Assembly: GCA_934358405.1 (NCBI GenBank)
Contig: CAKRKL010000065.1
Coordinates: 1 to 11,516, forward strand
Source of the DNA: an uncultured Blautia sp.
GTDB taxonomy: Bacteria; Bacillota; Clostridia; Lachnospirales; Lachnospiraceae
DNA length: 11,516 nucleotides
Direction: 5' to 3'
Under the pieces are notes generated by a model. The model did not search any database. It had not been told where the DNA came from and was given only the letters and a program-made list of their open reading frames with translations. The first letter of the stretch is position 1. Every line of letters starts with the position of its first letter. Position numbers and translations under genes: made by a program. Positions 8-11,338 of this stretch are shown piece after piece.

Positions 8-865
8 TTATTCTGTAATTGCCAGAAGCAGCTCTCTAAGAACCTTACATGCTGTTGCAGTGGAAACACCACTTACATCCAGCATAGGTGCCAGTTCATT
101 AACGTCTGCCCCCACTATATTTGTCTGGGAAACAGTGCGGATCGCATCAAGAAGCTCAAGGAAGCTTACCCCTCCTGTCTCCGGTGTTCCTGTACCTGGA
201 AATACTGATGGATCCAGGCAGTCCAGATCAATTGTAAAATATACCGGAGCCTTTTTTTCCTTCAGGTCCCTCACGGTCTCCTTCAGACCATCAAAGGTAA
301 ATGGATGAAAGTCAGTATGCAATCTGGCAAACTGAAATTCTTCTCTCTCACCGCTTCTGATGCAGAACTGATGAATGCGGTTATCTCCCAAAAGGTCGTG
401 GCATCTTCGCAGCACGCAGGCATGGCTTAGCCTTGCTCCCAGATAATCATCTCTTAGATCTGCATGTGCGTCAAAATGAATAATATGAAGATCCGGATAT
501 TTCTCAAAGACAGCCCGTACCGCCCCTAAGGTCACCAGATGCTCCCCTCCCAGCAGCAGCGGGAGCTTATCTGCTTTTAATATTTCCTTTGCTCTCTTTT
601 CTATATCCAAAAGAGCCATTTCACTGCTTCCAAAGCAAAGCTCCAGGTCTCCGCTGTCAAATACCCGGATATCCATAAGGTCTCTGTCCTGATAGGGACT
701 GTAGGTCTCAAGGCCAAAGCTTTCATGGCGCATGGCTGATGGGCCAAATCTGGCACCCGGTCGAAAGCTTGTTGTGGAATCAAACGGTGCCCCGTAAAGA
801 ACTACAGATGCTTCCTCAAAGCTGCTTTCGCAGCCGATAAAGGTTTCTACGTTAGGTCGGATCAT
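8..865 (-). CDS. speB: Agmatinase (ureohydrolase family)
   Basis: Cytosolic ureohydrolase of 285 aa, predicted to hydrolyse agmatine to putrescine and urea. The binuclear manganese ligands of the arginase/agmatinase family are all visible: GGEH at residues 106-109 (His109), HFDAHADLR at 130-138 (Asp132, His134, Asp136) and TIDLDCLDP at 211-219 (Asp213, Asp215), followed by the family signature PGTGTPETGG. The length is normal for bacterial SpeB. The ATG is preceded by GGAGG, which lies inside the last codons of speE, and only 3 nt separate the two genes, so translation is probably coupled. Position after an arginine-type decarboxylase and spermidine synthase favours agmatinase over arginase, guanidinobutyrase or formiminoglutamase. 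The stop lies 7 bases from the window edge, so whether the operon continues cannot be seen. Family assignment is very secure; substrate rests on context. Confidence 0.95.
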   Translation of the reverse strand: MIRPNVETFIGCESSFEEASVVLYGAPFDSTTSFRPGARFGPSAMRHESFGLETYSPYQDRDLMDIRVFDSGDLELCFGSSEMALLDIEKRAKEILKADKLPLLLGGEHLVTLGAVRAVFEKYPDLHIIHFDAHADLRDDYLGARLSHACVLRRCHDLLGDNRIHQFCIRSGEREEFQFARLHTDFHPFTFDGLKETVRDLKEKKAPVYFTIDLDCLDPSVFPGTGTPETGGVSFLELLDAIRTVSQTNIVGADVNELAPMLDVSGVSTATACKVLRELLLAITE

Positions 866-868
866 ATA

Positions 869-1723
869 TTATTCCTCCACTTCTTTTAGCATCTCCTCCA
901 GGAATGCAGGAAGATAAAATGCTCCTTTATGAAGTCTTGTTGTATAGTAACGTGTGCGAAGATTTAATGCATTCCATGCCTCAGGATCCAGGTCATCTAC
1001 CGGATGATATTTTTTGCTTGCAAATCCAAACAACCAGTAGCCTGCAGCAAATGTGGGGATATGTGCCTGATAAACACGGCTGATCTGGAAGGTACTGGCA
1101 ATTTTCTTATGACTGCGCTGCATGGCATGTGCATCCTCGGTATAGAAGGGACTTCCCTGCTGATTTACCATAATTCCGTCGTCCTTTAGTGCATTGTAGC
1201 AGTTCCCATAAAATTCACGGGTAAAAAGTCCTTCGGAGGGTCCAAAGGGATCGGAGGAATCTACAATAATAAGGTCGTATTTTCCCTCACACCTTCTGAT
1301 AAATTTCAGTGCATTTTCGTAATGAAGGTGTACTCTTCTGTCATCCAGTCTGCATGCATTTCCGGGAAGATATGCGCGGCAGGCTTCCACAACCATAGGG
1401 TCCATTTCTACCAGGTCAATGCGACTGACTCTGTCATATCTGGTCAGTTCACGGACAACACCTCCATCTCCTGCACCAATTACAAGGATATCCTTAGCCT
1501 CCTTATGGATTGCCATGGGCACATGGGTGATCATCTCATCATAAATAAATTCGTCTCTTTCTGTGAGCATTACATTGCCATCCAAAGTCAGCACACGGCC
1601 AAATTCCGGTGTCTCAAAAATATCAATTCTCTGATAATCACTCTGTTTCGAATAAAGCTGACGGTTTACCCGGATGCTATGCTTCACATCCGGTGTATGA
1701 AATTCTGAAAACCACATTTCCAT
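869..1723 (-). CDS. speE: Spermidine synthase (polyamine aminopropyltransferase)
   Basis: Cytosolic aminopropyltransferase of 284 aa that transfers the aminopropyl group of decarboxylated SAM to putrescine, giving spermidine and methylthioadenosine. Visible family features are YDEMITHVP at residues 61-69, the Rossmann nucleotide loop IGAGDGG at 82-88 (usually GGGDGG; the Ala is a mild variant), the acidic VEMDP at 105-109 and the substrate-binding VDSSDPFGP at 154-162. The first ATG (MEM) was chosen because GGGAGG, formed by the last two sense codons of speA, lies 8 nt upstream; the second Met two codons later would be too far from it. It is the middle gene of speA-speE-speB, with gaps of 5 and 3 nt. 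No SAM decarboxylase (speD) is in the window, so the co-substrate must come from elsewhere. Confidence 0.95.
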   Translation of the reverse strand: MEMWFSEFHTPDVKHSIRVNRQLYSKQSDYQRIDIFETPEFGRVLTLDGNVMLTERDEFIYDEMITHVPMAIHKEAKDILVIGAGDGGVVRELTRYDRVSRIDLVEMDPMVVEACRAYLPGNACRLDDRRVHLHYENALKFIRRCEGKYDLIIVDSSDPFGPSEGLFTREFYGNCYNALKDDGIMVNQQGSPFYTEDAHAMQRSHKKIASTFQISRVYQAHIPTFAAGYWLFGFASKKYHPVDDLDPEAWNALNLRTRYYTTRLHKGAFYLPAFLEEMLKEVEE

Positions 1724-1728
1724 TGCCT

Positions 1729-3198
1729 TTACCTCCCTTTCAGAACATTCAGTTTCAAAATATCCGGATCCTCCGGTCCTGTCATATTGCAGCCCTTTGC
1801 CTTTGCATATTCAATATAATCCAGGATCTCTGCTGTAATCCTCTCTCCAGGTGCAAGAATAGGAATTCCAGGCGGATAGCACATGACAAATTCACTGCAG
1901 ACCTTTCCTTCTGTTTCCCGAAGAGGCAGGCTGCATTTGTCCGCATAAAAAGCCTCCTGTGGACTGGTTATTACCTGCGGATCAATATACTCCTGGCTCA
2001 AAAGCCCGGAACCATCTGTCTGAAAACGTCTGCGGATTTCTGCAAGCGCACTTACAAGCCGTTCCACCTCCTGGGCACGGTCACCAATGGAAAGATAGGC
2101 AAGAATATTTCCGATATCACCGAATTCTATCTGGATATCATATTCATCCCGCAAAATATCATAAACCTCAATTCCCGCAAGTCCGATGTCCAGTGTATGT
2201 ACACTTAATTTGGTAATGTCAAAATCAAAAACTGAATTTCCGTTTACCAGTTCTTTTCCAAATGCATAATAGCCGCCGATTGCATTAATTTCCTCTCTGG
2301 CATATTCTGCCATATCGGCTACCTGATGAAAGATCTGACGGCCGCGCTGGGCAAGGTTTCTTCTTGAAATATCAAGACTTGACATCAGAAGATAGCTTCC
2401 TGAGGTGGTCTGAGTCAGGTTAATGATCTGGCGCACATAGCCTGCGTGTACCCCCGGGCCTGTAAGGAGAAGACTTGACTGTGTAAGACTTCCTCCGCTC
2501 TTATGCATGGATACAGATGCCATGTCTGCACCTGCTGCCATGGCAGAAACCGGAAGCCCGCCGCCAAAATAAAAATGGGTTCCATGGGCCTCATCTGCCA
2601 GACACAGCATTCCTGCGTCATGGGCCATCTTCACAATGGCACGAAGATCGCTGCAGATCCCATAATAGGTCGGGTTATTTACCAGCACTGCAACTGCCTT
2701 GGGATGCTCTTTTATGGCCTTCTCAACCTGTTCCCTGCGCATTCCCAGGGATATTCCAAGTCTTTGATCCACTTCCGGATTTACATAAACAGGAATTGCA
2801 CCGCACAAAACAAGGGCATTTAAAACGCTTCTGTGAACATTACGCGGCAGTATGATTTCATCTCCACGCTTACAGGCAGTCAATACCATTGTCTGAACAG
2901 AGCTTGTTGTGCCCCCTACCATCAGAAATGCATGTGCTGCACCAAAAGCGTCTGCTGCCAGCTCTTCTGCTTCCCGTATTACGGATACCGGATGACAAAG
3001 GTTGTCCAGAGGCTTCATGCTGTTAACATCCACTCCTACACATTTTTGTCCGAGAAACTCTGTCAGCTCCGGATTACCTCTTCCGCGCTTATGCCCTGGA
3101 ACATCAAATGGTACAACTCTCATTCGTCTAAAGGTCTCCAGAGCTTCATGTATAGGTGCATGATTCTGGTTCAGTTTAAAACGACTTCCTATCATCAT
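1729..3198 (-). CDS. speA: PLP-dependent arginine (Orn/Lys/Arg) decarboxylase
   Basis: Fold-type I PLP decarboxylase of the Orn/Lys/Arg family in its short Firmicute form (489 aa; Bacillus SpeA is about 490). Visible features are PGHKRG at residues 34-39, the cofactor-binding DEAHG at 202-206, the Schiff-base lysine Lys233 in SMHKSGGSLTQSS, and the small C-terminal domain with a YPPGIPIL motif. The expected reaction is arginine to agmatine plus CO2, feeding agmatinase two genes downstream. Sequence alone does not separate arginine from lysine or ornithine decarboxylase; the speB partner makes arginine most likely. The start is uncertain. GGAGG (3200-3204) is only 1 nt from the first ATG and 4 nt from the second (3195), so initiation may be at the second Met. 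A tiny ATG-GAG-GAA-TGA frame (3206-3195) overlaps the start. No clear promoter lies between this gene and the terminator at 3279-3318. Confidence 0.92.
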   Translation of the reverse strand: MMIGSRFKLNQNHAPIHEALETFRRMRVVPFDVPGHKRGRGNPELTEFLGQKCVGVDVNSMKPLDNLCHPVSVIREAEELAADAFGAAHAFLMVGGTTSSVQTMVLTACKRGDEIILPRNVHRSVLNALVLCGAIPVYVNPEVDQRLGISLGMRREQVEKAIKEHPKAVAVLVNNPTYYGICSDLRAIVKMAHDAGMLCLADEAHGTHFYFGGGLPVSAMAAGADMASVSMHKSGGSLTQSSLLLTGPGVHAGYVRQIINLTQTTSGSYLLMSSLDISRRNLAQRGRQIFHQVADMAEYAREEINAIGGYYAFGKELVNGNSVFDFDITKLSVHTLDIGLAGIEVYDILRDEYDIQIEFGDIGNILAYLSIGDRAQEVERLVSALAEIRRRFQTDGSGLLSQEYIDPQVITSPQEAFYADKCSLPLRETEGKVCSEFVMCYPPGIPILAPGERITAEILDYIEYAKAKGCNMTGPEDPDILKLNVLKGR

Positions 3199-3278
3199 TC
3201 CTCCATTTCCGGTTTCCTTTGCTTAAGCCCTCAATCAGCAATCCTGCAGTCTATTCCATAAAACAATTCTCATTACAT

Positions 3279-3318
3279 AAAAAAAGCGCAGGCAAGGGCA
3301 CTAAACCACAAACCTGCG
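3279..3318 (-). terminator. Intrinsic terminator or attenuator upstream of speA
   Basis: Read on the minus strand, CGCAGG (3318-3313) pairs with CCTGCG (3292-3287) across a 20-nt loop and is followed by C and seven consecutive T (3285-3279). This is a classic rho-independent terminator pointing towards speA, whose start is about 80 nt further on. It should end the RNA made from the strong promoter at 3673-3701. If transcription can read through under some condition, it would act as an attenuator of the spe operon. On the plus strand the stem is followed only by TTTTG, so it is mainly one-directional. Confidence 0.75.
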
Positions 3319-3337
3319 TTTTGATCGGTATTTATCT

Positions 3338-3394
3338 GCTTTATTTACAACATAAAAAGAAAAGGATGCACTCTTTAATTTTCATAAATAAAGC
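3338..3394. repeat. 10-bp perfect inverted repeat, 37-nt spacer
   Basis: GCTTTATTTA (3338-3347) and TAAATAAAGC (3385-3394) are exact reverse complements. On the minus strand the enclosed segment contains a smaller AAAGAG/CTTTTC pairing (with a wobble) followed by a U-rich stretch, so it could be a long AT-rich stem or a weak first termination site of the upstream RNA. It lies between the structured RNA core and the strong terminator. Its function is not known. Confidence 0.5.
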
Positions 3395-3411
3395 TTCTGG
3401 ATCATGGGTGT

Positions 3412-3634
3412 CAGAGTCTATATAGCAATTATACTTTTACTACTCTTATTGACCGTTTCACAAGTCTGCGCTTCTGGCGCATCGCGGTTATCAAAGGAAC
3501 CTACTTATAAAATTTGAGCTTTTAACTCAATCAATAAGGTAACCAAAGTTACCATAATCGGCAGTGGACCCGGCTGTCCGTATGGCCTTAACCCTGATCG
3601 GGTGGTCCAAAACAATTGCTTTGAAAAGACTCTG
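3412..3634 (-). ncRNA. Structured non-coding RNA or leader, family unassigned
   Basis: About 223 nt close on themselves through an 8-bp stem (CAGAGTCT/AGACTCTG, 3412-3419 with 3627-3634). Inside, all perfect in plus-strand terms: (a) a compact three-way junction with stems TGGACC/GGTCCA (3565-3570/3604-3609), GGC/GCC (3572-3574/3585-3587) and ACCC/GGGT (3591-3594/3600-3603); (b) a hairpin GGTAAC-CAAA-GTTACC (3538-3553); (c) a domain closed by CTTATTGA/TCAATAAG (3445-3452/3531-3538) holding hairpins TGCGC-loop-GCGCA (3467-3481), GGTT/AACC (3486-3489/3498-3501) and TTGAG/CTCAA (3514-3518/3526-3530). A near-perfect promoter lies about 30 nt upstream and a terminator follows. The minus strand is chosen from these signals. 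No open frame has a ribosome binding site. Size and branching recall the raiA-motif RNA, but I cannot confirm this from memory. It does not look like 6S RNA, SRP RNA, RNase P, tmRNA or a T-box. Confidence 0.6.
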
Positions 3635-3672
3635 TCTGTTACTCTGTATCTTCGTCTTCCAAAATCGAATTT

Positions 3673-3701
3673 ATCATATCATGCAGAAAATAAACTGTCA
3701 A
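3673..3701 (-). promoter_or_regulatory. Near-consensus sigma-A promoter for the structured RNA
   Basis: On the minus strand TTGACA (3701-3696) is followed after exactly 17 nt by TATGAT (3678-3673), preceded by TGA, which gives an extended -10 (TGN). The expected transcription start is a purine near 3666-3665. The -35 is perfect and the -10 has one mismatch. It fires leftwards into the structured RNA and eventually towards speA. No operator-like palindrome overlaps it, which suggests high constitutive transcription. Confidence 0.8.
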
Positions 3702-3719
3702 CAACAAATTATTAAACGA

Positions 3720-3753
3720 GAATTGCGGGAGCAGCTTCGCTGCGGAGCAATTC
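3720..3753. repeat. Two-tier hairpin element after the lacI-type gene; possible terminator
   Basis: GAATTGC (3720-3726) pairs with GCAATTC (3747-3753), and inside it GCAGC (3731-3735) pairs with GCTGC (3739-3743) around a TTC loop, with a small GGGA/GGA internal loop between. It begins 27 nt beyond the stop of the minus-strand regulator gene, so it would be in the 3' end of that transcript and could terminate it. The following minus-strand bases (TCGTTTAATAATTT) are only moderately U-rich. The organisation (long outer arm, short inner arm, adjacent GGGTCAAAAATCC) suggests an interspersed palindromic repeat rather than a simple terminator. Confidence 0.55.
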
Positions 3754-3779
3754 GTGGATATCAAGTTAGGGGCAAAGGG

Positions 3780-4787
3780 TCAAAAATCCGTTGTGCACCT
3801 TCGTACAATCTGGCATGGAACGCACACATTCTTCTCGATTTTAGCGCCCTTCTCCAGAAGCTCGATCATTCGCCCCACTGTCTTTTTGCACATCACGCCC
3901 AGCTTACTGTCCACCGACGTAAGCTCCGGATCGCTGCTGATTGCAAGAATGGAGTTATTATATCCTGCCACAGACAGCTCCCCGGGAATAGACAGTCCCT
4001 TAATCTTTGCGTATTTTACTGCTCCGATGGCAATTCCGTCCTCTGTTGCAAGGACGCTGTCAAAATCAAGGGTCTTATTGTATTCAAGCAGCATGTTCCG
4101 CGTATATTCAATGTCATTTCTGGTTTTGAATTTCAGATTCCCAAGGATGGGGTATCCTGCGTCCTGCAGTGCGGCTTCATAGCCTGCCATCTTCTGTCTG
4201 GCACTGTAGGATTCCGAGTCATACATAAAAAGGATTCTCTTTTTGCCTCTTCGGAGAAAAGCCTTTGTCACTTCATAAGTAGCCTGAAAATCATCTGCAT
4301 AGGTGCAGTAAATATTCCTGCCGGAAACCTTTGCGTTGATCATAAATACAGAAACCTGTTCTGCTGCCTCGCGAATATAATCTGTGTCAGATTCGTCTTT
4401 CCCATTTCCTGCATATGTGGAACCAACCAGTATCAGCGTATCGATTTTTTTGGACAAAAGAAGTCTGACGTAGCTTTCCTTTTCTTCCTGCTTAAACCCG
4501 CTGCAGCCAAGAATACAGTCATATCCATAGGCATGAAGATTTTGTTCCAGATAAGATACTGCTTTTGCCATATAGATATCGTCAATATTGGGACAGATGA
4601 TCCCCACTGTTTTCATGGAGCCAAGGCCCAAGCCTCTTGCAAAGGCATTCGGCGTATATTCATTTTCTTTCATAACCGCAAGAACCTTTTCTTTGGTTCT
4701 TTGGCTAACCTTGGGACTGTTATTTACGACTCTGGATACTGTTGCAATGGAAACATTTGCCAGCTTTGCAATATCATATATATTCAC
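3780..4787 (-). CDS. LacI-family transcriptional regulator, probable hexuronate repressor
   Basis: 335-aa LacI/GalR repressor. The N-terminal helix-turn-helix (residues 4-23, IYDIAKLANVSIATVSRVVN) and hinge (NEYTPNAFARGL, about 42-53) are canonical. They are followed by a periplasmic-binding-protein-like effector domain starting KTVGIICPNIDD. The start is GTG at 4787, with AGGAG 7 nt upstream (4795-4799). It lies 70 bp downstream of uxaC on the same strand with no terminator or promoter seen between, so it is probably co-transcribed. It probably binds the two TGTAAG-NN-CTTACA operators in the uxaC/uxaA gap, repressing both arms and itself, with a hexuronate or pathway intermediate as inducer. 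Its role parallels Bacillus ExuR/KdgR, which are also LacI members, but orthology is not shown. The stop codon sits within a TTTTTGACCC motif shared with the palindrome at 8044-8133. Confidence 0.9.
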   Translation of the reverse strand: MNIYDIAKLANVSIATVSRVVNNSPKVSQRTKEKVLAVMKENEYTPNAFARGLGLGSMKTVGIICPNIDDIYMAKAVSYLEQNLHAYGYDCILGCSGFKQEEKESYVRLLLSKKIDTLILVGSTYAGNGKDESDTDYIREAAEQVSVFMINAKVSGRNIYCTYADDFQATYEVTKAFLRRGKKRILFMYDSESYSARQKMAGYEAALQDAGYPILGNLKFKTRNDIEYTRNMLLEYNKTLDFDSVLATEDGIAIGAVKYAKIKGLSIPGELSVAGYNNSILAISSDPELTSVDSKLGVMCKKTVGRMIELLEKGAKIEKNVCVPCQIVRRCTTDF

Positions 4788-4857
4788 TCTATTTCTCCTG
4801 GTAAGCCTTCACTTCAATATTTGTATCAAACTGCCTGTTATTTTAACATCAATCATT

Positions 4858-6264
4858 TTACAGGTCAAATCCAAAATAGCGTACTGCGTTATTGTATGAA
4901 ATTCCGCACACAATCTCCTCTAAGGTCTTATAATCAGCCGGATATTCGCCGTTTTCGACCCAGCCTCCTATAAGTTCGCAGAGGATTCTGCGGAAATACT
5001 CGTGTCTTGTGTAGGACAAAAAGCTTCGTGAATCTGTAAGCATACCTATAAAGTTTGCAAGCAGTCCCAGATTCGCAAGTGATGTCATCTGTGCGATCAT
5101 GCCTGTCTTGTGATCGTTGAACCACCATGCACTTCCCTGCTGGATTTTGCCTGCTGCCTCTGTTCCCTGGAAGCACCCGAGAATTGTTCCGATTGCTTCG
5201 TTGTCATTTGGGTTTAAGGAATAGAGGATTGTCTTTGGAAGCTCATCTGATGCAACCAGCGAATTCAGAAAATCTGCGGTCTGGGCACTTGGAGCATAGT
5301 TGTTAATGCAGTCATATCCTGTGTCCGGCCCAAGCTTCTCATACATCAACGCATTGTTGTCTCTCTTGCAGCCATAATGAATCTGCATTACCCAGTTTTT
5401 CTCATGGTATGCCTTACCTGCAAACTGCATAAACGCTGTCTTAAAAATCATTTCCTCTTCTCTTGAAATGCTTTCACCACTCAGGCTCTTCCTGAAAATC
5501 CGGTTTACTCTTTCTTCTGCTGCCGGTGCATACATCACATATTCCAGTGCATGATCAGATACACAGCAGCCCATCTGTGCAAAGAACTCCATTCTCTTAA
5601 GAAGAGCTTCCTTCAGGTCTTGGAAATCCCTGATTTCAACGCCGCTGACCTGTGAAAGCTTTGCCACATATTCCGGGTATCCGGGCTTTTCCAGATTCAT
5701 TGCCTTATCCGGGCGCCATGCAGGAAGCACTTTTACCTCAAAGCTTTCATCCTCTGCAAGAAGCTTATGCCACTTCAGATCATCTGCGGGATCATCTGTG
5801 GTGCAGATTAATTTTACATTGGACCTGCGGATAATATTTCTTACAGACAGGTCATCTTCCTGCAGCTTTTTGTTGCACAGGTTCCACACTTCCTCTGCTG
5901 TATCCGTGTTCAGATAGCCTGTATATCCGAAATATCTCTGCAGCTCCAGATGACTCCAGTGATAGAGCGGATTTCCAATTGCTCTGCCAAGCGTTTGTGC
6001 CCATTTCTGAAATTTCTCACGGTCACTGGCGCCGCCTGTAATGTAGTACTCATCTACTCCGTCTGATCGCATCTGGCGCCATTTATAATGATCGCCCCCA
6101 AGCCACACCTGGGTAATATTTTCAAACTTACGGTCCTCTGCAATTTCCTGTGGATTAATATGACAATGATAGTCTACGATGGGCATTTTCATAGCATATT
6201 CATGAAATAATTTTTTAGCGGTTTCTGTTGAAAGTAAAAAGTCCTGATCCATAAATGCTTTCAT
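4858..6264 (-). CDS. uxaC: Uronate (glucuronate/galacturonate) isomerase
   Basis: 468-aa isomerase of the UxaC family, an outlying member of the metal-dependent amidohydrolase superfamily. It interconverts D-galacturonate and D-tagaturonate, or D-glucuronate and D-fructuronate, the first cytosolic step of hexuronate breakdown. The metal-binding HxH is visible as VDYHCHINP at residues 30-38 (His33, His35), and the full length matches the usual 465-470 aa. Other family-like stretches are TTDDPADDLKWH and the C-terminal LTDSRSFLSYTRHEYFRR. The ATG at 6264 has AGAGGAT about 10 nt upstream (6274-6280). It is first in a leftward unit with the LacI-type regulator and is transcribed divergently from uxaA. 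A strong promoter lies at 6366-6394 with an operator just downstream of its start point. Since only altronate-branch enzymes follow in the window, galacturonate is the best-supported substrate here. Confidence 0.96.
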   Translation of the reverse strand: MKAFMDQDFLLSTETAKKLFHEYAMKMPIVDYHCHINPQEIAEDRKFENITQVWLGGDHYKWRQMRSDGVDEYYITGGASDREKFQKWAQTLGRAIGNPLYHWSHLELQRYFGYTGYLNTDTAEEVWNLCNKKLQEDDLSVRNIIRRSNVKLICTTDDPADDLKWHKLLAEDESFEVKVLPAWRPDKAMNLEKPGYPEYVAKLSQVSGVEIRDFQDLKEALLKRMEFFAQMGCCVSDHALEYVMYAPAAEERVNRIFRKSLSGESISREEEMIFKTAFMQFAGKAYHEKNWVMQIHYGCKRDNNALMYEKLGPDTGYDCINNYAPSAQTADFLNSLVASDELPKTILYSLNPNDNEAIGTILGCFQGTEAAGKIQQGSAWWFNDHKTGMIAQMTSLANLGLLANFIGMLTDSRSFLSYTRHEYFRRILCELIGGWVENGEYPADYKTLEEIVCGISYNNAVRYFGFDL

Positions 6265-6341
6265 AATATAATTATCCTCTTCATTTTATCTTTTTAAATA
6301 CAGATTAAAAATCTTTCTTCCTTGTTGTTTTTATTTTATTT

Positions 6342-6355
6342 TGTAAGCACTTACA
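6342..6355. promoter_or_regulatory. LacI-type operator in front of uxaC
   Basis: TGTAAG-CA-CTTACA, with perfect 6-bp arms around a 2-bp centre. It begins just downstream of the predicted transcription start (about 6359) of the leftward uxaC promoter, a classic blocking position. The arms are identical to those of the second operator at 6510-6523. The centre is CA rather than CG, so it is not a good CcpA cre site. The likely ligand is the LacI-family protein encoded at 3780-4787 (inference from location and palindrome type). Confidence 0.8.
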
Positions 6356-6365
6356 CTTTTCTTAC

Positions 6366-6394
6366 AGTATACAATACACTGTCAACAATTTCAA
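6366..6394 (-). promoter_or_regulatory. uxaC promoter
   Basis: On the minus strand TTGAAA (6394-6389), a 17-nt spacer and TATACT (6371-6366), each one mismatch from the sigma-A consensus. The expected start is near 6359, giving a leader of about 95 nt before the uxaC ATG. The operator at 6342-6355 lies immediately downstream. A TTGACA (6385-6380) also occurs inside the spacer but has no matching -10. Confidence 0.75.
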
Positions 6395-6422
6395 TTCCTG
6401 TTTTAGTTTCTAAATATCTAAA

Positions 6423-6467
6423 TTTTTTCATGTATTTTTATGTGTTTTCACGAATTTTCGCTTTTTT
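6423..6467. promoter_or_regulatory. Phased T-tracts, probable intrinsic bend between the two operators
   Basis: Five runs of 4-6 T occur at 6423-6428, 6435-6439, 6445-6448, 6455-6458 and 6462-6467. Their centres are spaced roughly 8-12 bp apart, that is, about one per helical turn. Such phasing is known to curve DNA. The segment lies directly upstream of the -35 of uxaA and between the two operators, so it could act as an UP-like element or favour loop formation. Confidence 0.45.
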
Positions 6468-6477
6468 CCATTTCCCA

Positions 6478-6506
6478 TTGACACTCAGACTCTGTTGATG
6501 TAACTT
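6478..6506 (+). promoter_or_regulatory. Candidate uxaA promoter
   Basis: A perfect TTGACA at 6478-6483 is followed after 17 nt by TAACTT (6501-6506), a weak -10 with 3 of 6 matches. The start would be near 6513, inside the operator at 6510-6523, as expected for a repressed promoter. The -35 is convincing. The exact -10 is less so. Confidence 0.55.
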
Positions 6507-6508
6507 AT

Positions 6509-6524
6509 ATGTAAGTACTTACAT
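6509..6524. promoter_or_regulatory. LacI-type operator in front of uxaA
   Basis: A perfect 16-bp palindrome, ATGTAAGTACTTACAT, with the core TGTAAG-TA-CTTACA at 6510-6523. It overlaps the predicted uxaA transcription start and lies 35 bp before the TTG start codon. Its centre is 168 bp from that of the sister operator at 6342-6355. The in-frame ATG at 6523 falls inside this palindrome, one reason to reject that codon as the uxaA start. Confidence 0.85.
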
Positions 6525-6558
6525 GCAGTTTTCTAGCAGGAAGGAGGACATTTATTTC

Positions 6559-8040
6559 TTGAAATCTTTTATTAAAATTAATCCTTTAGATAATGTAGCC
6601 GTTGCGCTTCAGCCACTGGCCAAAGGCACTGTGATCCAGCTTGATCATTCCACACTCACTCTTACAGAGGACATCATGCAGGGGCACAAGTTCGCATTAA
6701 AAAATCTAGAGTCTGGAGATTCTATTATCAAATATGGCAATCCCATTGGACGTGCAACCGCAAAAATCCCTGCCGGCTCCTGGATCCATACTCATAATCT
6801 GAAAACAGGGCTGGGAGATCTTCTTACTTATACATACAACAAGAACACTGCAGAGCTTTTGCACCGAGAGCCAAAATTCTTCCAGGGATATCAAAGAAAA
6901 GACGGACGTGTAGGTGTACGAAATGAGATCTGGATCATTCCTACAGTAGGCTGCGTTAACAATGTTGCAGCTGCCATTGAGCGAGCTGCACAAAAATACA
7001 TCACAGACCAGGTCGATGGTATCTGTGCCTTCCCGCATCCTTACGGATGTTCCCAAATGGGTGATGACCAGAATCACACACGCCAGATCCTGGCTGATCT
7101 GGTTAATCATCCCAATGCCGGCGGTGTTCTGGTTCTTGGACTTGGCTGCGAGAACAGCAACATTGATGAATTAAAGAAGTTTATCGGGGACTATGATTCC
7201 CGGCGTGTACGTTTTCTTGTTGCCCAGGAATGCGAGGATGAAATCCATGACGGAATAGAAATTGTCAGAGAGCTTATCTCCTATGCCTCCGCCTTTAAAC
7301 GGGAACCCATCAGCGCAGCCAAACTGGTGATCGGCATGAAATGCGGCGGCTCTGACGGCTTATCCGGAATCACGGCAAACCCTGCTGTGGGTGCCTTTTC
7401 TGACAAGCTGATTTCCATGGGCGGATCTACCATTCTTACAGAGGTTCCTGAAATGTTCGGTGCAGAAGAATCACTTATGAACCGCTGTGAGAACGAGGCT
7501 CTGTTTGACAAGACCGTAGCGCTTATCAATGACTTCAAAAGCTATTTTAAAAGTCATAATCAGACTATTTATGAAAATCCTTCCCCTGGAAACAAAAAGG
7601 GTGGTATTTCAACCCTGGAGGACAAATCCCTTGGCTGTACCCAGAAATCAGGAAGTGCACCTGTCAGGGGAGTTCTTTCTTACGGTGAGCCTGTAAAAGA
7701 AAAAGGGCTGAACCTGCTTAGTGCACCTGGCAATGACCTTGTTGCCTCTACTGCCCTTGCAGCATCCGGTGCACACATTGTTCTTTTCACCACCGGACGG
7801 GGAACCCCTTTTGCCTGTCCTGTGCCCACAGTCAAGATTTCCACCAATAACCAGCTTGCCCAAAAGAAGCAGAACTGGATTGATTTCAACTGTGGAGTTC
7901 TGGTAAATGGCACACCGCTTGATGAGCTTTCAGAAAATCTTCTGGATTTTGTCCTTGAAATTGCTTCCGGAAAGAAATCCAAATCCGAAGAAGCCGGTTT
8001 TCATGATATGGCAATCTTCAAGCAAGGCGTTACCTTATAA
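6559..8040 (+). CDS. uxaA: Altronate dehydratase
   Basis: 493-aa UxaA/GarD-family dehydratase converting D-altronate to 2-keto-3-deoxygluconate (KDG) in the cytosol. The N-terminal SAF-like domain (about 1-90, starting KSFIKINPLDNVAVAL as in other UxaA proteins) is followed by GYQRKDGRVGVRNEIWIIP (110-128), PYGCSQMGDD (161-170), GLGCEN (194-199), GMKCGGSDGLSGITANP and EVPEMFGAE. These are hallmark stretches of the altronate/galactarate dehydratase C-terminal domain, whose family members are iron-dependent. The TTG at 6559 was chosen over an in-frame ATG at 6523. AGGAAGGAGG (6538-6547) lies 11 nt before the TTG, and the family N-terminus begins there. The ATG lies within the operator and has no ribosome binding site. 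It is first in the rightward unit uxaA-uxaB-kdgA-kdgK. No truncation is seen. Confidence 0.95.
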   Translation: MKSFIKINPLDNVAVALQPLAKGTVIQLDHSTLTLTEDIMQGHKFALKNLESGDSIIKYGNPIGRATAKIPAGSWIHTHNLKTGLGDLLTYTYNKNTAELLHREPKFFQGYQRKDGRVGVRNEIWIIPTVGCVNNVAAAIERAAQKYITDQVDGICAFPHPYGCSQMGDDQNHTRQILADLVNHPNAGGVLVLGLGCENSNIDELKKFIGDYDSRRVRFLVAQECEDEIHDGIEIVRELISYASAFKREPISAAKLVIGMKCGGSDGLSGITANPAVGAFSDKLISMGGSTILTEVPEMFGAEESLMNRCENEALFDKTVALINDFKSYFKSHNQTIYENPSPGNKKGGISTLEDKSLGCTQKSGSAPVRGVLSYGEPVKEKGLNLLSAPGNDLVASTALAASGAHIVLFTTGRGTPFACPVPTVKISTNNQLAQKKQNWIDFNCGVLVNGTPLDELSENLLDFVLEIASGKKSKSEEAGFHDMAIFKQGVTL

Positions 8041-8043
8041 ATC

Positions 8044-8133
8044 TGATACCAGGGTCAAAAGGTCAAAAAATCGATGCAAGCTCGCTTGCAAGAGGATTTT
8101 TGGTATCAAAGGGGTCAAAAACCTTTTGACCCC
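8044..8133. repeat. Nested palindromic element between uxaA and uxaB
   Basis: The 121-bp gap is nearly all inverted repeats. TGATACC (8044-8050) pairs with GGTATCA (8102-8108), AAAAATC (8066-8072) with GATTTTT (8095-8101), and TGCAAGC (8075-8081) with GCTTGCA (8084-8090) around TC, giving one long interrupted hairpin. To its right, GGGGTCAAAA (8111-8120) pairs with TTTTGACCCC (8124-8133). Alternatively GGGTCAAAAGG (8052-8062) pairs perfectly over 11 bp with CCTTTTGACCC (8122-8132), which excludes the right-hand hairpin. GGTCAAAA occurs three times. No T-run follows, so it is not a standard terminator. It would be transcribed inside the uxa operon and may alter mRNA stability or relative expression. 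It may belong to an interspersed repeat family, since related bases occur at 3775-3789. Confidence 0.75.
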
Positions 8134-8161
8134 AACATCATCAATGAAGGGAAAAAGGAAA

Positions 8162-9652
8162 ATGAAAAAATTATCTTACGCAACATTAAAAGAACAGGGT
8201 TATGACGGATATCTTCTTGAGTCAGCACCGGAGCGTGTGCTTCAGTTTGGCGAGGGAAACTTTCTCCGTGCCTTTGTAGATTATTTTATTGATGTGTTAA
8301 ATGAAAAAGCAGGCTTCAACTCCAAGGTTGTACTTTGCCAGCCAAGCGCACCTAAGCCCGTGCTTGCTGATGTGATCAACCAGCAGGAGGGTCTTTACAC
8401 ATTGTTTCTCCGTGGCTTCCAGGATGGTCAGAAGGTCAATAAAAAACGTGTTATTTCCTGCGTAAGCCGCTGTCTCAATCCATACAGGGATTTTGAAGCG
8501 GTTCTTGCCTGTGCAGATAACCCGGACCTTCGTTTTATCGCATGTAATACTACAGAAGCAGGTATTGCGTATGACCCTTCCTGCCAGTTCACGGATACTC
8601 CTCCAAGCAGCTATCCCGGAAAGCTGACTCAGCTTATGTATCGTCGTTTCCAAAAATTTGGTCAAAAGGCTGGCAAGGGATTTCTGATTCTTTCCTGTGA
8701 GCTCATTGATGACAATGGAAAAGAACTGGAAAAATGTGTATTAAAATATGCAAAGCAGTGGAAGCTTGGCGAAGACTTCATCAACTGGATCAAGACTGAG
8801 AATCTCTTCTGTTCCACACTGGTAGACCGTATTGTAACCGGATACCCGCGCAATGAGGCTGCTGCAATCTGTGAAGAGCTTGGCTATGAGGATGATCTGA
8901 TCGATACCGGTGAAATCTTCGGATTCTGGGTAATTGAAGGACCTCAGTCAATCAAAGAGGAATTCCCGGTTGACAAGGCAGACCTTCCGATCCTGATCAC
9001 AGACAATCATAAGCCATACAAGCAGAGAAAGGTTCGTATCCTAAACGGTGCCCACACCTCCTTTGTACTGGGTGCTTACCTTGCAGGACAGGACATTGTC
9101 AGAGATTGCATGAATGACCATGTGATCTGCGAATTCATGAACAAAACCATTTATGATGAGATCATTCCCACTCTGGACCTTCCCAAAAAAGAGCTTGAAG
9201 AGTTCGCAGCTTCCGTTACAGAGCGTTTCAAAAACCCATTTATTGACCACGCACTTCTTTCCATTTCTCTGAATTCCACCTCCAAATGGAAAGCGCGTGT
9301 TATGCCTTCCCTGAAAAAATATGTGGAGCGTAAGGGTACGCTTCCGGCATGCATCACAGCTTCTTTTGCCTTCTATATTGCCTTCTATAACGGATATGCC
9401 CTGACAGAGGACGGACTTACCGCCAAAAGAGCTGCCAATGAATATACGGTAAAGGATGACAAGGCAGTTCTTGAATTCTACCTTGCACATAAGGACGATT
9501 CTGTAGATAAGCTTGTCCATGCAGTATGCACCAACACCGCTTTCTGGGGCGAGGATCTGACACAGATTGCCGGATTTGAAGCAGCTGTATGCAATTACTT
9601 AACTCAGATCCGCGACAACGGTACCTATGAAGTAATGAAAGAACTGGTTTAA
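8162..9652 (+). CDS. uxaB: Tagaturonate reductase (altronate oxidoreductase)
   Basis: 496-aa NAD-dependent member of the long-chain mannitol dehydrogenase family, reducing D-tagaturonate to D-altronate. The N-terminal RVLQFGEGNFLRAFVD (residues 25-40) carries the glycine-rich nucleotide-binding loop. ACNTTEAGIAY (127-137), SCELIDDNG (178-186) and STLVDRIVTGYPR (218-230) follow closely the E. coli UxaB pattern. The catalytic KxxxxNxxH is K290, N295, H298 in KVRILNGAH. The resemblance to UxaB is closer than to fructuronate reductase UxuB, and the altronate dehydratase neighbour agrees. The start chosen is ATG 8162 (MKKLSYATL), with GAAGGG at 8146-8151. An in-frame ATG at 8144 is possible, but it would put that Shine-Dalgarno sequence inside the gene. 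The longer open frame back to 7907 overlaps uxaA and the palindromic gap and is not coding. The stop overlaps the kdgA ribosome binding site. Confidence 0.95.
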   Translation: MKKLSYATLKEQGYDGYLLESAPERVLQFGEGNFLRAFVDYFIDVLNEKAGFNSKVVLCQPSAPKPVLADVINQQEGLYTLFLRGFQDGQKVNKKRVISCVSRCLNPYRDFEAVLACADNPDLRFIACNTTEAGIAYDPSCQFTDTPPSSYPGKLTQLMYRRFQKFGQKAGKGFLILSCELIDDNGKELEKCVLKYAKQWKLGEDFINWIKTENLFCSTLVDRIVTGYPRNEAAAICEELGYEDDLIDTGEIFGFWVIEGPQSIKEEFPVDKADLPILITDNHKPYKQRKVRILNGAHTSFVLGAYLAGQDIVRDCMNDHVICEFMNKTIYDEIIPTLDLPKKELEEFAASVTERFKNPFIDHALLSISLNSTSKWKARVMPSLKKYVERKGTLPACITASFAFYIAFYNGYALTEDGLTAKRAANEYTVKDDKAVLEFYLAHKDDSVDKLVHAVCTNTAFWGEDLTQIAGFEAAVCNYLTQIRDNGTYEVMKELV

Positions 9653-9666
9653 GGAGAATTTATATT

Positions 9667-10317
9667 ATGAATACAACACTAGAAAAGCTTGGTAAATTCG
9701 GTGTGGTTCCTGTTGTTGTGTTGGATGATGCCAACGATGCCGCACCTCTTGCAAAAGCACTCTGTGATGGCGGCCTTGCCTGTGCGGAAGTAACCTTTCG
9801 TACTGCTGCTGCCGAAGAGGCTATCCGCATTATGACATCCAGGTATCCCAAAATGCTTGTGGGTGCCGGCACTGTTCTTACCAAAGAGCAGGTTGACCGC
9901 GCTGTAGCCGCCGGAGCAGCCTTTATCGTAACACCAGGACTTGACCCGGAAATTGTCAGATACTGCATGGAAAAGGGTGTGCCTGTAGCTCCCGGGATCG
10001 TAACTCCAAGCGAGCTTGCAAAAGCTTATACCCTCGGACTTCGTCTTGTAAAGTTCTTCCCGGCAGAGCTATCCGGCGGGCTTCCGATGATCAAGGCTCT
10101 GGCAGCCCCTTATAATATGATGCAGTTTATGCCTACAGGCGGTATCAGCGCAGCAACCCTTTGTGATTATCTTCGCTGCGAAAAGATCTTTGCATGTGGC
10201 GGAAGCTGGATGGTCAAGGACAGCCTTATCAAATCCGGAGATTTTGACAGGATTACAGCGCTTACAAAAGAGGCTGTTGAGCTCGTCCATACTGTCAGGG
10301 GGTGTGAAAATGACTAA
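9667..10317 (+). CDS. kdgA: KDPG aldolase (2-dehydro-3-deoxyphosphogluconate aldolase)
   Basis: 216-aa class I aldolase of the Eda/KdgA family. It splits 2-keto-3-deoxy-6-phosphogluconate into pyruvate and glyceraldehyde-3-phosphate, the last step of the pathway. Visible are the catalytic glutamate Glu41 in AEVTFRT, the phosphate/substrate loop GAGTVL at 66-71, the Schiff-base lysine Lys129 in LVKFFPAE, PTGGI at 156-160 and the C-terminal GGSW. Length and order are typical, and a (beta/alpha)8 barrel is expected. AAGGAG (9651-9656) overlaps the uxaB stop codon and stands 10 nt before ATG. The gene overlaps kdgK by 8 bp. Some members also act on 2-keto-4-hydroxyglutarate; the context here points clearly to KDPG. 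Confidence 0.96.
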   Translation: MNTTLEKLGKFGVVPVVVLDDANDAAPLAKALCDGGLACAEVTFRTAAAEEAIRIMTSRYPKMLVGAGTVLTKEQVDRAVAAGAAFIVTPGLDPEIVRYCMEKGVPVAPGIVTPSELAKAYTLGLRLVKFFPAELSGGLPMIKALAAPYNMMQFMPTGGISAATLCDYLRCEKIFACGGSWMVKDSLIKSGDFDRITALTKEAVELVHTVRGCEND

Positions 10318-11338
10318 AGTCGTAACTTTAGGAGAAATTATGCTAAGACTCTCCCCACCTGGATATCAGCGCTTTGCCCAGGCAGGAAGTTTTGAAATCA
10401 ACTATGGAGGTGCGGAGGCTAATGTTGCCGCATCTCTGGCACAATTTGGCCATCATTGCCTTTTTCTTTCCAAAATACCACAAAATGCCATTGGAGATGC
10501 TGCCATTCAGACACTTCGCAGTTTAAATGTAGATTGCGGACACATTGCAAGAGGCGGCAAGCGTCTTGGAATTTACTTCCTGGAAAACGGTTCTTCCATA
10601 CGTCCGTCCAGTGTGATCTATGACCGTGCGGATTCTTCCATCACCAAGGCATCTCCTGATGAATTTGATTTTGACCGGATATTTAAAGACGCAAAGCTTT
10701 TTCACGTATCCGGAATCACTCCTGTATTAAGTGAAGAGGCCCAAAGGCTTACCTTTGCTGCATTAAAAAAGGCCAGGGAACATCATGTAATGGTTTCCTT
10801 TGACCTGAATTATCGCTCTAAATTATGGACATCTGATATAGAGGGCAAGCAGAAAATGCTCTCAAGGATGATGGAGTATGTGGACATCTGCTTCGGAAAT
10901 GCCCGTGATGCAGCAAAATGTCTCGGCTACACCGAGACTGGGGTTGATTTTATAAACGGCGACTACAGCATCTGCGTAGACGAAGAACATATGCGTAATG
11001 TATTAAAGCACTATCAGTTCACCCACCTGGTCACAACTCTGCGCAACAGCATCAGTGCATCTGACAATGGATGGTCGGGAGCCGTCTGCACAAAAGAGGA
11101 TTACTACAAGGGACGTGACTACATGCTTCATATTGTTGACCGCGTCGGCGGCGGAGATTCTTTTGCTTCCGGCTTCCTTCATGGCATTCTTGCCAATATG
11201 GGAAACCGGAAAGCTCTTGAATTTGGTCTTGCAGCTGCTGCCATCAAGCACACCATCCCAGGTGACTTAAACTATATTACGGAATCAGAGGTTCTTTCCA
11301 TGATTGAAAGTGACGGCGCAGGGCGGGTACAGCGTTAG
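10310..11338 (+). CDS. kdgK: 2-keto-3-deoxygluconate kinase (PfkB family)
   Basis: 342-aa PfkB/ribokinase-family sugar kinase phosphorylating KDG to KDPG with ATP. The first signature region is NYGGAEANVAASLAQFG (residues 31-47). The second is DRVGGGDSFASGF (277-289), with the catalytic base Asp283 in the anion-hole GGGD. This GGGD, rather than GAGD, is what one expects of KDG kinases of this type. The start is ATG 10310 (MTKVVTLGEIMLRLSPP), preceded by AGGGGGTG, and overlaps the last 8 bp of kdgA, so translation is likely coupled. The extension upstream to 10163 lies inside kdgA and is not coding. It is the last gene of the rightward unit. The context argues against other PfkB sugars such as fructose or ribose. 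Confidence 0.94.
   Translation: MTKVVTLGEIMLRLSPPGYQRFAQAGSFEINYGGAEANVAASLAQFGHHCLFLSKIPQNAIGDAAIQTLRSLNVDCGHIARGGKRLGIYFLENGSSIRPSSVIYDRADSSITKASPDEFDFDRIFKDAKLFHVSGITPVLSEEAQRLTFAALKKAREHHVMVSFDLNYRSKLWTSDIEGKQKMLSRMMEYVDICFGNARDAAKCLGYTETGVDFINGDYSICVDEEHMRNVLKHYQFTHLVTTLRNSISASDNGWSGAVCTKEDYYKGRDYMLHIVDRVGGGDSFASGFLHGILANMGNRKALEFGLAAAAIKHTIPGDLNYITESEVLSMIESDGAGRVQR

Follow-up and report, generated by a model that had tools for sequence, protein, structure and literature searches.

Polyamines are abundant RNA-binding cations, and whether bacteria possess dedicated RNA folds that sense them was for a long time an open question. The validated spermidine riboswitch is a rare SAM-I variant with a four-stem architecture and 13 examples in several Gram-positive genera, shown experimentally to be a terminator-type OFF switch upstream of polyamine genes including ldcC (PMC10853860). 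Among other RNA motifs, odc1 and speF are described in alphaproteobacteria, speF doubtfully also in C. difficile, and potE in Veillonella (PMC8632094, PMC11477304). In the pneumococcus, two reports locate F59 at 869510-869591, between SP0915 and SP0916, equating it with SN20/srn235 (PMC3395615), and describe SN20 of S. pneumoniae TIGR4 as a 318-nt transcribed region between SP0915 and SP0916, seen by tiling array, with a predicted promoter and Rho-independent terminator (PMC2887815). A list from 2025, drawn up from a pool cleared of recognised cis-regulators, enters M7 (srn235/F59/Spd_sr49) as a putative sRNA, and the accompanying text contains neither the word polyamine nor the word spermidine (PMC12323649). 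The F59 coordinates fall inside SN20. SP0916 is a lysine/arginine decarboxylase gene.

The window analysed here (the whole stretch of 11,516 nucleotides from an uncultured Blautia sp., contig CAKRKL010000065.1) carries on its minus strand, in this order, a LacI-type gene, a promoter, a structured RNA, a terminator and the genes speA-speE-speB (Table 1). The gap from the end of the LacI-type gene (3780) to the start of speA (3198) measures 581 bp; the two plus-strand frames touching it, 3219-3425 and 3564-4973 (the latter antisense to the LacI-type gene), were judged spurious. Among the loci compared, the closest is from Blautia sp. MSJ-9 (locus L088), with a 99% identical SpeA and the same RNA. 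The region 3780-11338 encodes a LacI-type regulator and UxaC on the minus strand and, on the plus strand after UxaC, altronate dehydratase-like, mannitol-dehydrogenase-family, KDPG aldolase and PfkB kinase genes (Pfam); going by these Pfam hits, it is a hexuronate utilisation locus unrelated to the RNA.

Table 1. Coordinates of the features of the locus, listed in the direction of the minus strand.
Feature	Position	Strand	Basis
Sigma-70-type promoter TTGACA-N17-TATGAT, extended -10 (TG)	3673..3701	-	11/12 matches; enriched over homologues
Conserved structured RNA, aptamer-like domain, 223 nt, P1 5′ to P1 3′ strand	3412..3634	-	alignment A1, counted pairs, covariance model R1
P1 5′ strand CAGAGTCT, partner 3419-3412	3627..3634	-	73-75% of cells paired in homologues
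P2 5′ strand AGCAATT, partner 3430-3424	3614..3620	-	58-66% of cells paired
P3 5′ strand, partner 3570-3565; second pair covaries UA/GC/CG	3604..3609	-	RNAalifold and pair counts
RF02440 SpF59_sRNA (ldcC RNA) part: P3, P4, conserved core	3558..3608	-	cmscan
P4 hairpin; 4/4 pairs covary	3591..3603	-	pair counts
Near-invariant core AAGGCCATACGGACAGCCGGG, the search pattern; GGC/GCC helix closes loop CAUACGGACA	3569..3589	-	homologue comparison
P5 hairpin GGTAAC/GTTACC; 6/6 pairs covary	3538..3553	-	pair counts
P6 5′ strand TATTGATT, partner 3454-3447	3529..3536	-	97-99% of cells paired
P7 hairpin GAGT/GCTC	3516..3528	-	pair counts
P8 5′ strand TTTTATAAGT, partner 3465-3456	3503..3512	-	97-99% of cells paired
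P9a hairpin, three-way junction	3486..3501	-	pair counts
P9b hairpin, three-way junction, length variable	3468..3480	-	73-74% of cells paired
Antiterminator strand CGCAGACTTGTG (P9b 3′ and P8 3′), 12 bp with 3318-3307	3459..3470	-	cognate-pairing test
3′ module, most universal part; alternative hairpin GAGT/ACTC and AGTA/TGCT competes with P1/P2	3412..3465	-	model and locus comparison
Terminator 5′ arm and flank CGCAGGTTTGTG, antiterminator target	3307..3318	-	cognate-pairing test
Intrinsic terminator, stem 3318-3312/3293-3287, U-run 3285-3279	3279..3318	-	terminator search
speA-type Orn/Lys/Arg decarboxylase, first operon gene	1729..3198	-	Pfam PF01276; no NCBIfam model at its cut-off
speE spermidine synthase	869..1723	-	TIGR00417 and NF002010 above cut-off
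speB agmatinase	8..865	-	TIGR01230 above cut-off

An earlier reading of the same DNA, made from the sequence alone (the sequence-only reading), had described an RNA of unknown family and named the raiA motif as the first family to compare. Screening with all Rfam models (cmscan) gave RF02440 (SpF59_sRNA) as the only family above its cut-off in the window, matched over its full model (positions 1-54) at 66.9 bits against a gathering score of 37.2, and neither part of that description held: the family is a known one, and raiA gave no gathering-level match in the window and none at E≤1 in 3200-3780. Likewise, over the 4227 Rfam models, no SAM-family or T-box match reached its gathering score in the window, and none appeared in 3200-3780 at E≤1; speF, odc1 and potE were not among the window's Rfam matches, of which Rfam may not contain all three. 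S_pombe_snR95 and Atu_C9, on the E≤1 list for 3200-3780, lay far below cut-off and were taken as chance. In the open-licence literature searched, no paper treating the RNA as a riboswitch was found; the Rfam alias ‘ldcC RNA’ suggests an earlier naming, so that priority may lie elsewhere. On the opposite strand to the structured RNA, 3674-3763 (plus) shows a sub-threshold match to Clostridiales-1 RNA (RF01699; 27.9 bits against a gathering score of 48, E 4e-4 in a 581-nt search); the strong hairpin there, AATTGCGGGAG..CGGAGCAATT, which separates the LacI-type gene from the speA promoter, resembles a shortened copy.

The RNA is, as the sequence-only reading had it, multibranched and about 220 nt in length, with an 8-bp closing stem (P1), a three-way junction (P8 with the hairpins P9a and P9b) and further stems, all of which could be located. 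The fold energy of 3662-3412 (minus strand) is -72.1 kcal/mol (z = -4.1), a value equalled by 0 of 200 shuffles. Covariation was examined in alignment A1, comprising 76 sequences aligned with plain MAFFT on sequence alone, which remained when 96 loci with both ends were reduced to 86 without near-identical members and 10 of more than 250 nt were left out. A 64-pair structure applied to A1 had 87.1% of its cells paired, compared with 35-46% when slid, and 240 cells changed on both sides, compared with 102±8 in shuffles; 0 of 500 shuffles reached any of five measures. Similarly, 61 matches from the genome draws, aligned by fitting to the structure model (six of the 61 rows coincide with A1 rows), gave 287 double-changed cells against 79±10, with double change in 47 of the 64 pairs. 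The weakest helices are P1, P2 and P9b (58-75% of cells paired). The RNAalifold consensus on A1 comprises 35 pairs, in P3, P4, P7, P8, a CGG/CCG helix and the 3′ hairpin; P1, P2, P5, P6, P9a and P9b are not part of it and were named by hand, then counted. Conservation and covariation of the stems, on which the sequence-only reading had staked its proposal, are thus present in both alignments, and the strong covariation supports a functional structured RNA. In the A1 columns just outside P8, A/C alternates with G/U (CAAATTTT with GAAACGG; CAGTTTT with GAAATGG), which by eye resembles an A+.C to G.U wobble exchange.

In the core, the CGG/CCG helix proposed by RNAalifold breaks in divergent members and was rejected in favour of GGC/GCC, because divergent members swap the latter to GCC/GGC, AGC/GCU or GGC/GCU. 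All three core-helix pairs were formed in 42 of 50 rows for CGG/CCG and, with loop length chosen freely, in 49 of 50 for GGC/GCC (11 of the 61 rows are without ACGGACA); the CGG/CCG pairs were still part of the 64-pair structure counted in both covariation tests. In two divergent loci from the Bacilli draw (L176 and L177), the core helix is fully swapped to GCC/GGC and the 3′ module is altered, with a weak match of 26.7 bits to the 3′-module model R2. Invariance of the core among core-selected loci proves nothing, because they were picked by that core. Conservation outside it is informative: measured from the core start, it extends about 50 nt in the upstream and 175 nt in the downstream direction. 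The last segment of the conserved region, TTGCTATATAGACTCT, is exact in 82 loci among the 99 whose end could be found (112 examined).

The promoter noted in the sequence-only reading, with its 17-bp spacer and extended -10, is present, placing the likely transcription start near 3666. As a single site it is weak evidence, because the window's promoter region contains two sites of at least 9/12 where 1.5 are expected. Over homologous loci, a site of at least 10/12 occurred 170-50 nt upstream of the core in 76 of 115, compared with 3.6 expected.

The exact 21-base core was found in at least 118 stretches of one-genome-per-species contigs. The proportion of genomes matched by covariance model R1 was 25/398 in a draw from the phylum of the Blautia genome, 22/200 in one from the class of Bacillus sp. 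V3B, 7/80 in one from the class of a Phascolarctobacterium and 8/81 in one from the phylum of a Synergistaceae genome, with some genomes recurring between draws. The RNA therefore occurs in Bacillota and Synergistota genomes; variants without the core or the modelled parts would be missed, because the core, or models derived from it, brought in most of the loci. In the Blautia class the RF02440 model itself matched 14 genomes out of 118; among 14 control genomes it matched Lactococcus lactis only. A genome can hold more than one copy: in each of two metagenome-assembled genomes the core appears on two separate contigs (L034/L093 and L107/L114).

The linkage of the RNA to polyamine genes is nearly complete. 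The nearest same-strand match within 1.6 kb downstream was read by tblastn with six reference proteins. Among the matches listed, a polyamine gene came next in 112 of 112 readable core-selected loci (7 of the 119 core-selected contigs end too soon for a reading), the nearest gene being SpeA in 35, SpeD in 30, carboxy(nor)spermidine synthase in 30 and PotA in 17. One of the same four gene kinds followed in 68 of 69 loci from the genome draws, each recurring locus being counted once (25/25, 17/18, 6/6, 8/8 and 12/12). Over the 80-nt stretch used for comparison, 18 of these 69 are copies of a core-selected locus; this leaves 51 further distinct loci, 50 of them with a polyamine gene, and an overall same-strand linkage of 162 of 163 distinct readable loci in Bacillota and Synergistota. 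The sole match without a polyamine gene (L180, 25.3 bits) was taken as a false positive. Representatives of SpeD, SpeE, SpeB, NspC and PotA reach the curated cut-off (NCBIfam/Pfam), that of carboxy(nor)spermidine synthase is a strong match below it (418 of 800 bits), and for the trio of genes behind potA the best matches are PotB, PotC and PotD, also below cut-off. In L083 and L023, SpeD is followed by frames that by eye resemble SpeA, SpeE and SpeB.

The RNA is modular, with a constant 3′ module (the P8 3′ strand and the GAGU..ACUC hairpin/toggle strand) and an exchangeable 5′ domain. The 3′ module was present in 27 of 28 loci inspected (absent in L193), including all 14 brought in by RF02440; none of these 14 had been used for R2, though the window, which did contribute to R2, has a near-identical counterpart among them (L156). 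In the 398-genome draw R2 and R1 matched exactly the same 25 genomes, an agreement that is partly circular because twelve of those loci contributed to R2 and R1 includes the module. In 5 of the 25 R1 loci of that draw (L143, L145, L146, L148 and L149) the 5′ domain is either absent or unrecognisable; RF02440 also misses L140 and L147, and matched 2 of 12 rescanned loci with divergent RNAs. Loci L145 and L148 (1501-1750), where the downstream gene is speD, retain only the 3′ module together with a P2-like partner strand, GCAAATATTTT, and have a promoter-like site (by eye) immediately before the module; they form a natural minimal version that lacks the RF02440 part. In L149, L178 and L179 the same 3′ module lies upstream of speA behind a different, shared 5′ region with a GGGGCT..CGCGCCC hairpin and no Rfam match at gathering level. 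The exact 3′-module pattern had no copies in the viral contigs searched. Since the 3′ module is constant and the 5′ domain sometimes missing, sensing or switching may be centred in the portion that no database models.

The terminator of the sequence-only reading is real, but it lies about 95 nt past the closing stem, outside the 3412..3701 to which that reading had assigned it. Between the RNA and the start codon, a terminator was found in 79 of 83 loci, compared with 7.6 expected from shuffles, and none in the other four (36 of the 119 loci were left out because they lacked an anchor, a label or a start motif). Among 64 draw loci tested (leaving out L119-L121, L152, L156, L180 and L186), 60 had a terminator, three mutually alike loci (L136-L138) had none and one was without an anchor.

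The 3′ strand of P9b and P8 can base-pair with the 5′ arm of the terminator, and the antiterminator so formed and P8/P9b are mutually exclusive. This complementarity was first noticed by eye and then subjected to permutation and held-out tests. The first test set comprised 82 non-redundant loci, restricted to those having a terminator no more than 260 nt away. In it, cognate duplexes averaged -13.74 kcal/mol and swapped ones -12.15, a difference reached by 0 of 5000 permutations, and again by 0 of 5000 when swaps stayed inside a gene group; four control strands from elsewhere in the fold gave -5.0 to -8.1 kcal/mol with the terminator arm. The P4-side control strand showed a small cognate effect overall (-7.94 against -7.31, 9/5000) and none within groups. 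By group, permutations as good numbered 3 of 5000 for SpeA, 0 for SpeD and 117 for PotA, a weaker effect, and in the carboxy(nor)spermidine synthase group, with nearly alike sequences, no cognate effect was seen (-15.16 against -15.14, 2350/5000). Furthermore, 46 held-out loci, non-redundant with the first set, gave -12.40 for cognate and -9.87 for swapped duplexes (0/5000), two control strands (-5.33 and -4.98) not being significant in that set. At least four of the five conserved P8 bases ACTTG are used in the antiterminator in 70 of 84 loci. In the window the state with aptamer and terminator is 12 kcal/mol better than the antiterminator state, and the ON state would therefore need kinetic or cotranscriptional help.

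A further pairing involves the end of the conserved region. The TTGCTATATAGACTCT strand can pair with the variable 5′ strand of P1/P2 at -18.72 kcal/mol for cognate and -15.69 for swapped combinations (0/2000 permutations), the cognate strand ranking only 14th of 76 at the median. Its alternative partner is the near-invariant AGAGTAGTAAAAGTA, 98% paired and with weak covariation (3 cells). The two pairings exclude each other and possibly constitute a second toggle.

Two traits of a riboswitch emerge computationally: a conserved, structured, aptamer-like domain in the 5′ leader (given the predicted transcription start) and an expression platform that is mutually exclusive with part of the aptamer. 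We consider it likely that the RNA is a cis-acting, transcriptional leader of riboswitch type for the polyamine operon and that RF02440 is a fragment of it. Of the options left by the sequence-only reading, an independent ncRNA or a leader of speA-speE-speB, the leader is thus the better supported, and the terminated leader might have a trans role in addition. Binding of a ligand would stabilise the fold with P8 and P9b closed, leaving the terminator arm free, and transcription would stop to give a terminated leader of roughly 390 nt; without ligand, the 3′ strand of P9b/P8 would capture the terminator arm and the operon would be read. The switch would accordingly be OFF when the fold closes, probably at plentiful polyamine.

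As to the ligand, SpeA-SpeB-SpeD-SpeE and carboxy(nor)spermidine synthase-NspC are unrelated routes to spermidine. Spermidine is the favoured candidate, with another polyamine second, because these two unrelated routes and the spermidine/putrescine importer share it as their end product. The same anatomy could instead serve a non-polyamine ligand such as SAM, decarboxylated SAM, arginine, agmatine or lysine, given that speA and speD act upstream of spermidine and use arginine/lysine and SAM. However, neither SAM nor arginine is a shared substrate of the carboxy(nor)spermidine synthase-nspC and potABCD operons, and the common point of the linked genes is spermidine or putrescine, which makes such a ligand unlikely. 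Distinctly unlikely, in our estimation, is an attenuator in which an RNA-binding protein or ribosomal component reporting polyamine status sets the choice of terminator. A large leader with a constant 3′ module, an exchangeable 5′ domain and no known ligand would suit it, but in ten loci inspected the genes that come directly after it encode polyamine enzymes or components of a transporter (a few of the names having been tested), the one exception-like case being a regulator-like frame, by eye, about 4 kb downstream in L100; moreover, the long near-invariant loops appear typical of aptamers.

Leader-peptide attenuation is known from speFL of enterobacteria. Its counterpart here would be a short frame starting GTG AAA CGG, open in many sequences and reaching 19 codons, to or near the aligned end, in 27 of 76. 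Against it, the distances from one conserved block to the next differ by 1-2 nt (9-12 nt in 96 loci, with 23 loci lacking the anchor in this first count; 2-8 nt in 100 loci), frame lengths range from 2 to 19 codons and GTGAAA is absent in 7 of 76. Because single-base variation separates the conserved blocks, there is no conserved reading frame; a conserved peptide was rejected, and this mechanism is scarcely credible. A gene for a trans-acting sRNA (SpF59/srn235/SN20/M7), merely situated upstream of polyamine genes and pairing with distant mRNAs, would agree with how the pneumococcal RNA has been catalogued: as a tiling-array transcript (PMC2887815), in the F59 listing (PMC3395615) and in the 2025 putative-sRNA list (PMC12323649), with F59/srn235/SN20 placed in a review table beside ‘Lung’ under virulence control. 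A terminated leader would give the same array signal, though, and both the same-strand position upstream of four polyamine gene kinds in 162 of 163 distinct readable loci and a terminator/antiterminator pairing that covaries with the fold speak against such a gene, which we regard as very unlikely.

Returning to the riboswitch-type leader, we lean towards a widespread natural class of polyamine riboswitch, with spermidine as the likeliest ligand and a fold of its own, unrelated to the SAM-I variant, that controls two spermidine routes and uptake in Bacillota and Synergistota and is modular, its heart perhaps in the unmodelled part. A large common fold at the genes of polyamine synthesis and uptake offers a candidate answer to the question of polyamine-sensing RNAs, with a stated ligand, switching strands and a predicted direction. 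If this holds, the pneumococcal putative-sRNA entry becomes a cis-regulatory leader.

Among known systems, the raiA motif RNA (RF03072, as designated in the sequence-only reading) is of comparable size and complexity; the RNA described here does not match it and differs in its tight cis linkage to one pathway. RF02440 is typed as an sRNA gene, and its 54 positions cover a quarter of the RNA, whose most constant part, the 3′ module, lies outside the Rfam model. The speF, odc1 and potE motifs resemble it in being structured RNAs upstream of polyamine-related genes (PMC8632094, PMC11477304). The SAM-I variant shares with it the polyamine genes downstream, the terminator-type OFF design (predicted for the present RNA) and the same biological logic, whereas the present RNA has no SAM-I match, a different fold and a wider spread (PMC10853860).
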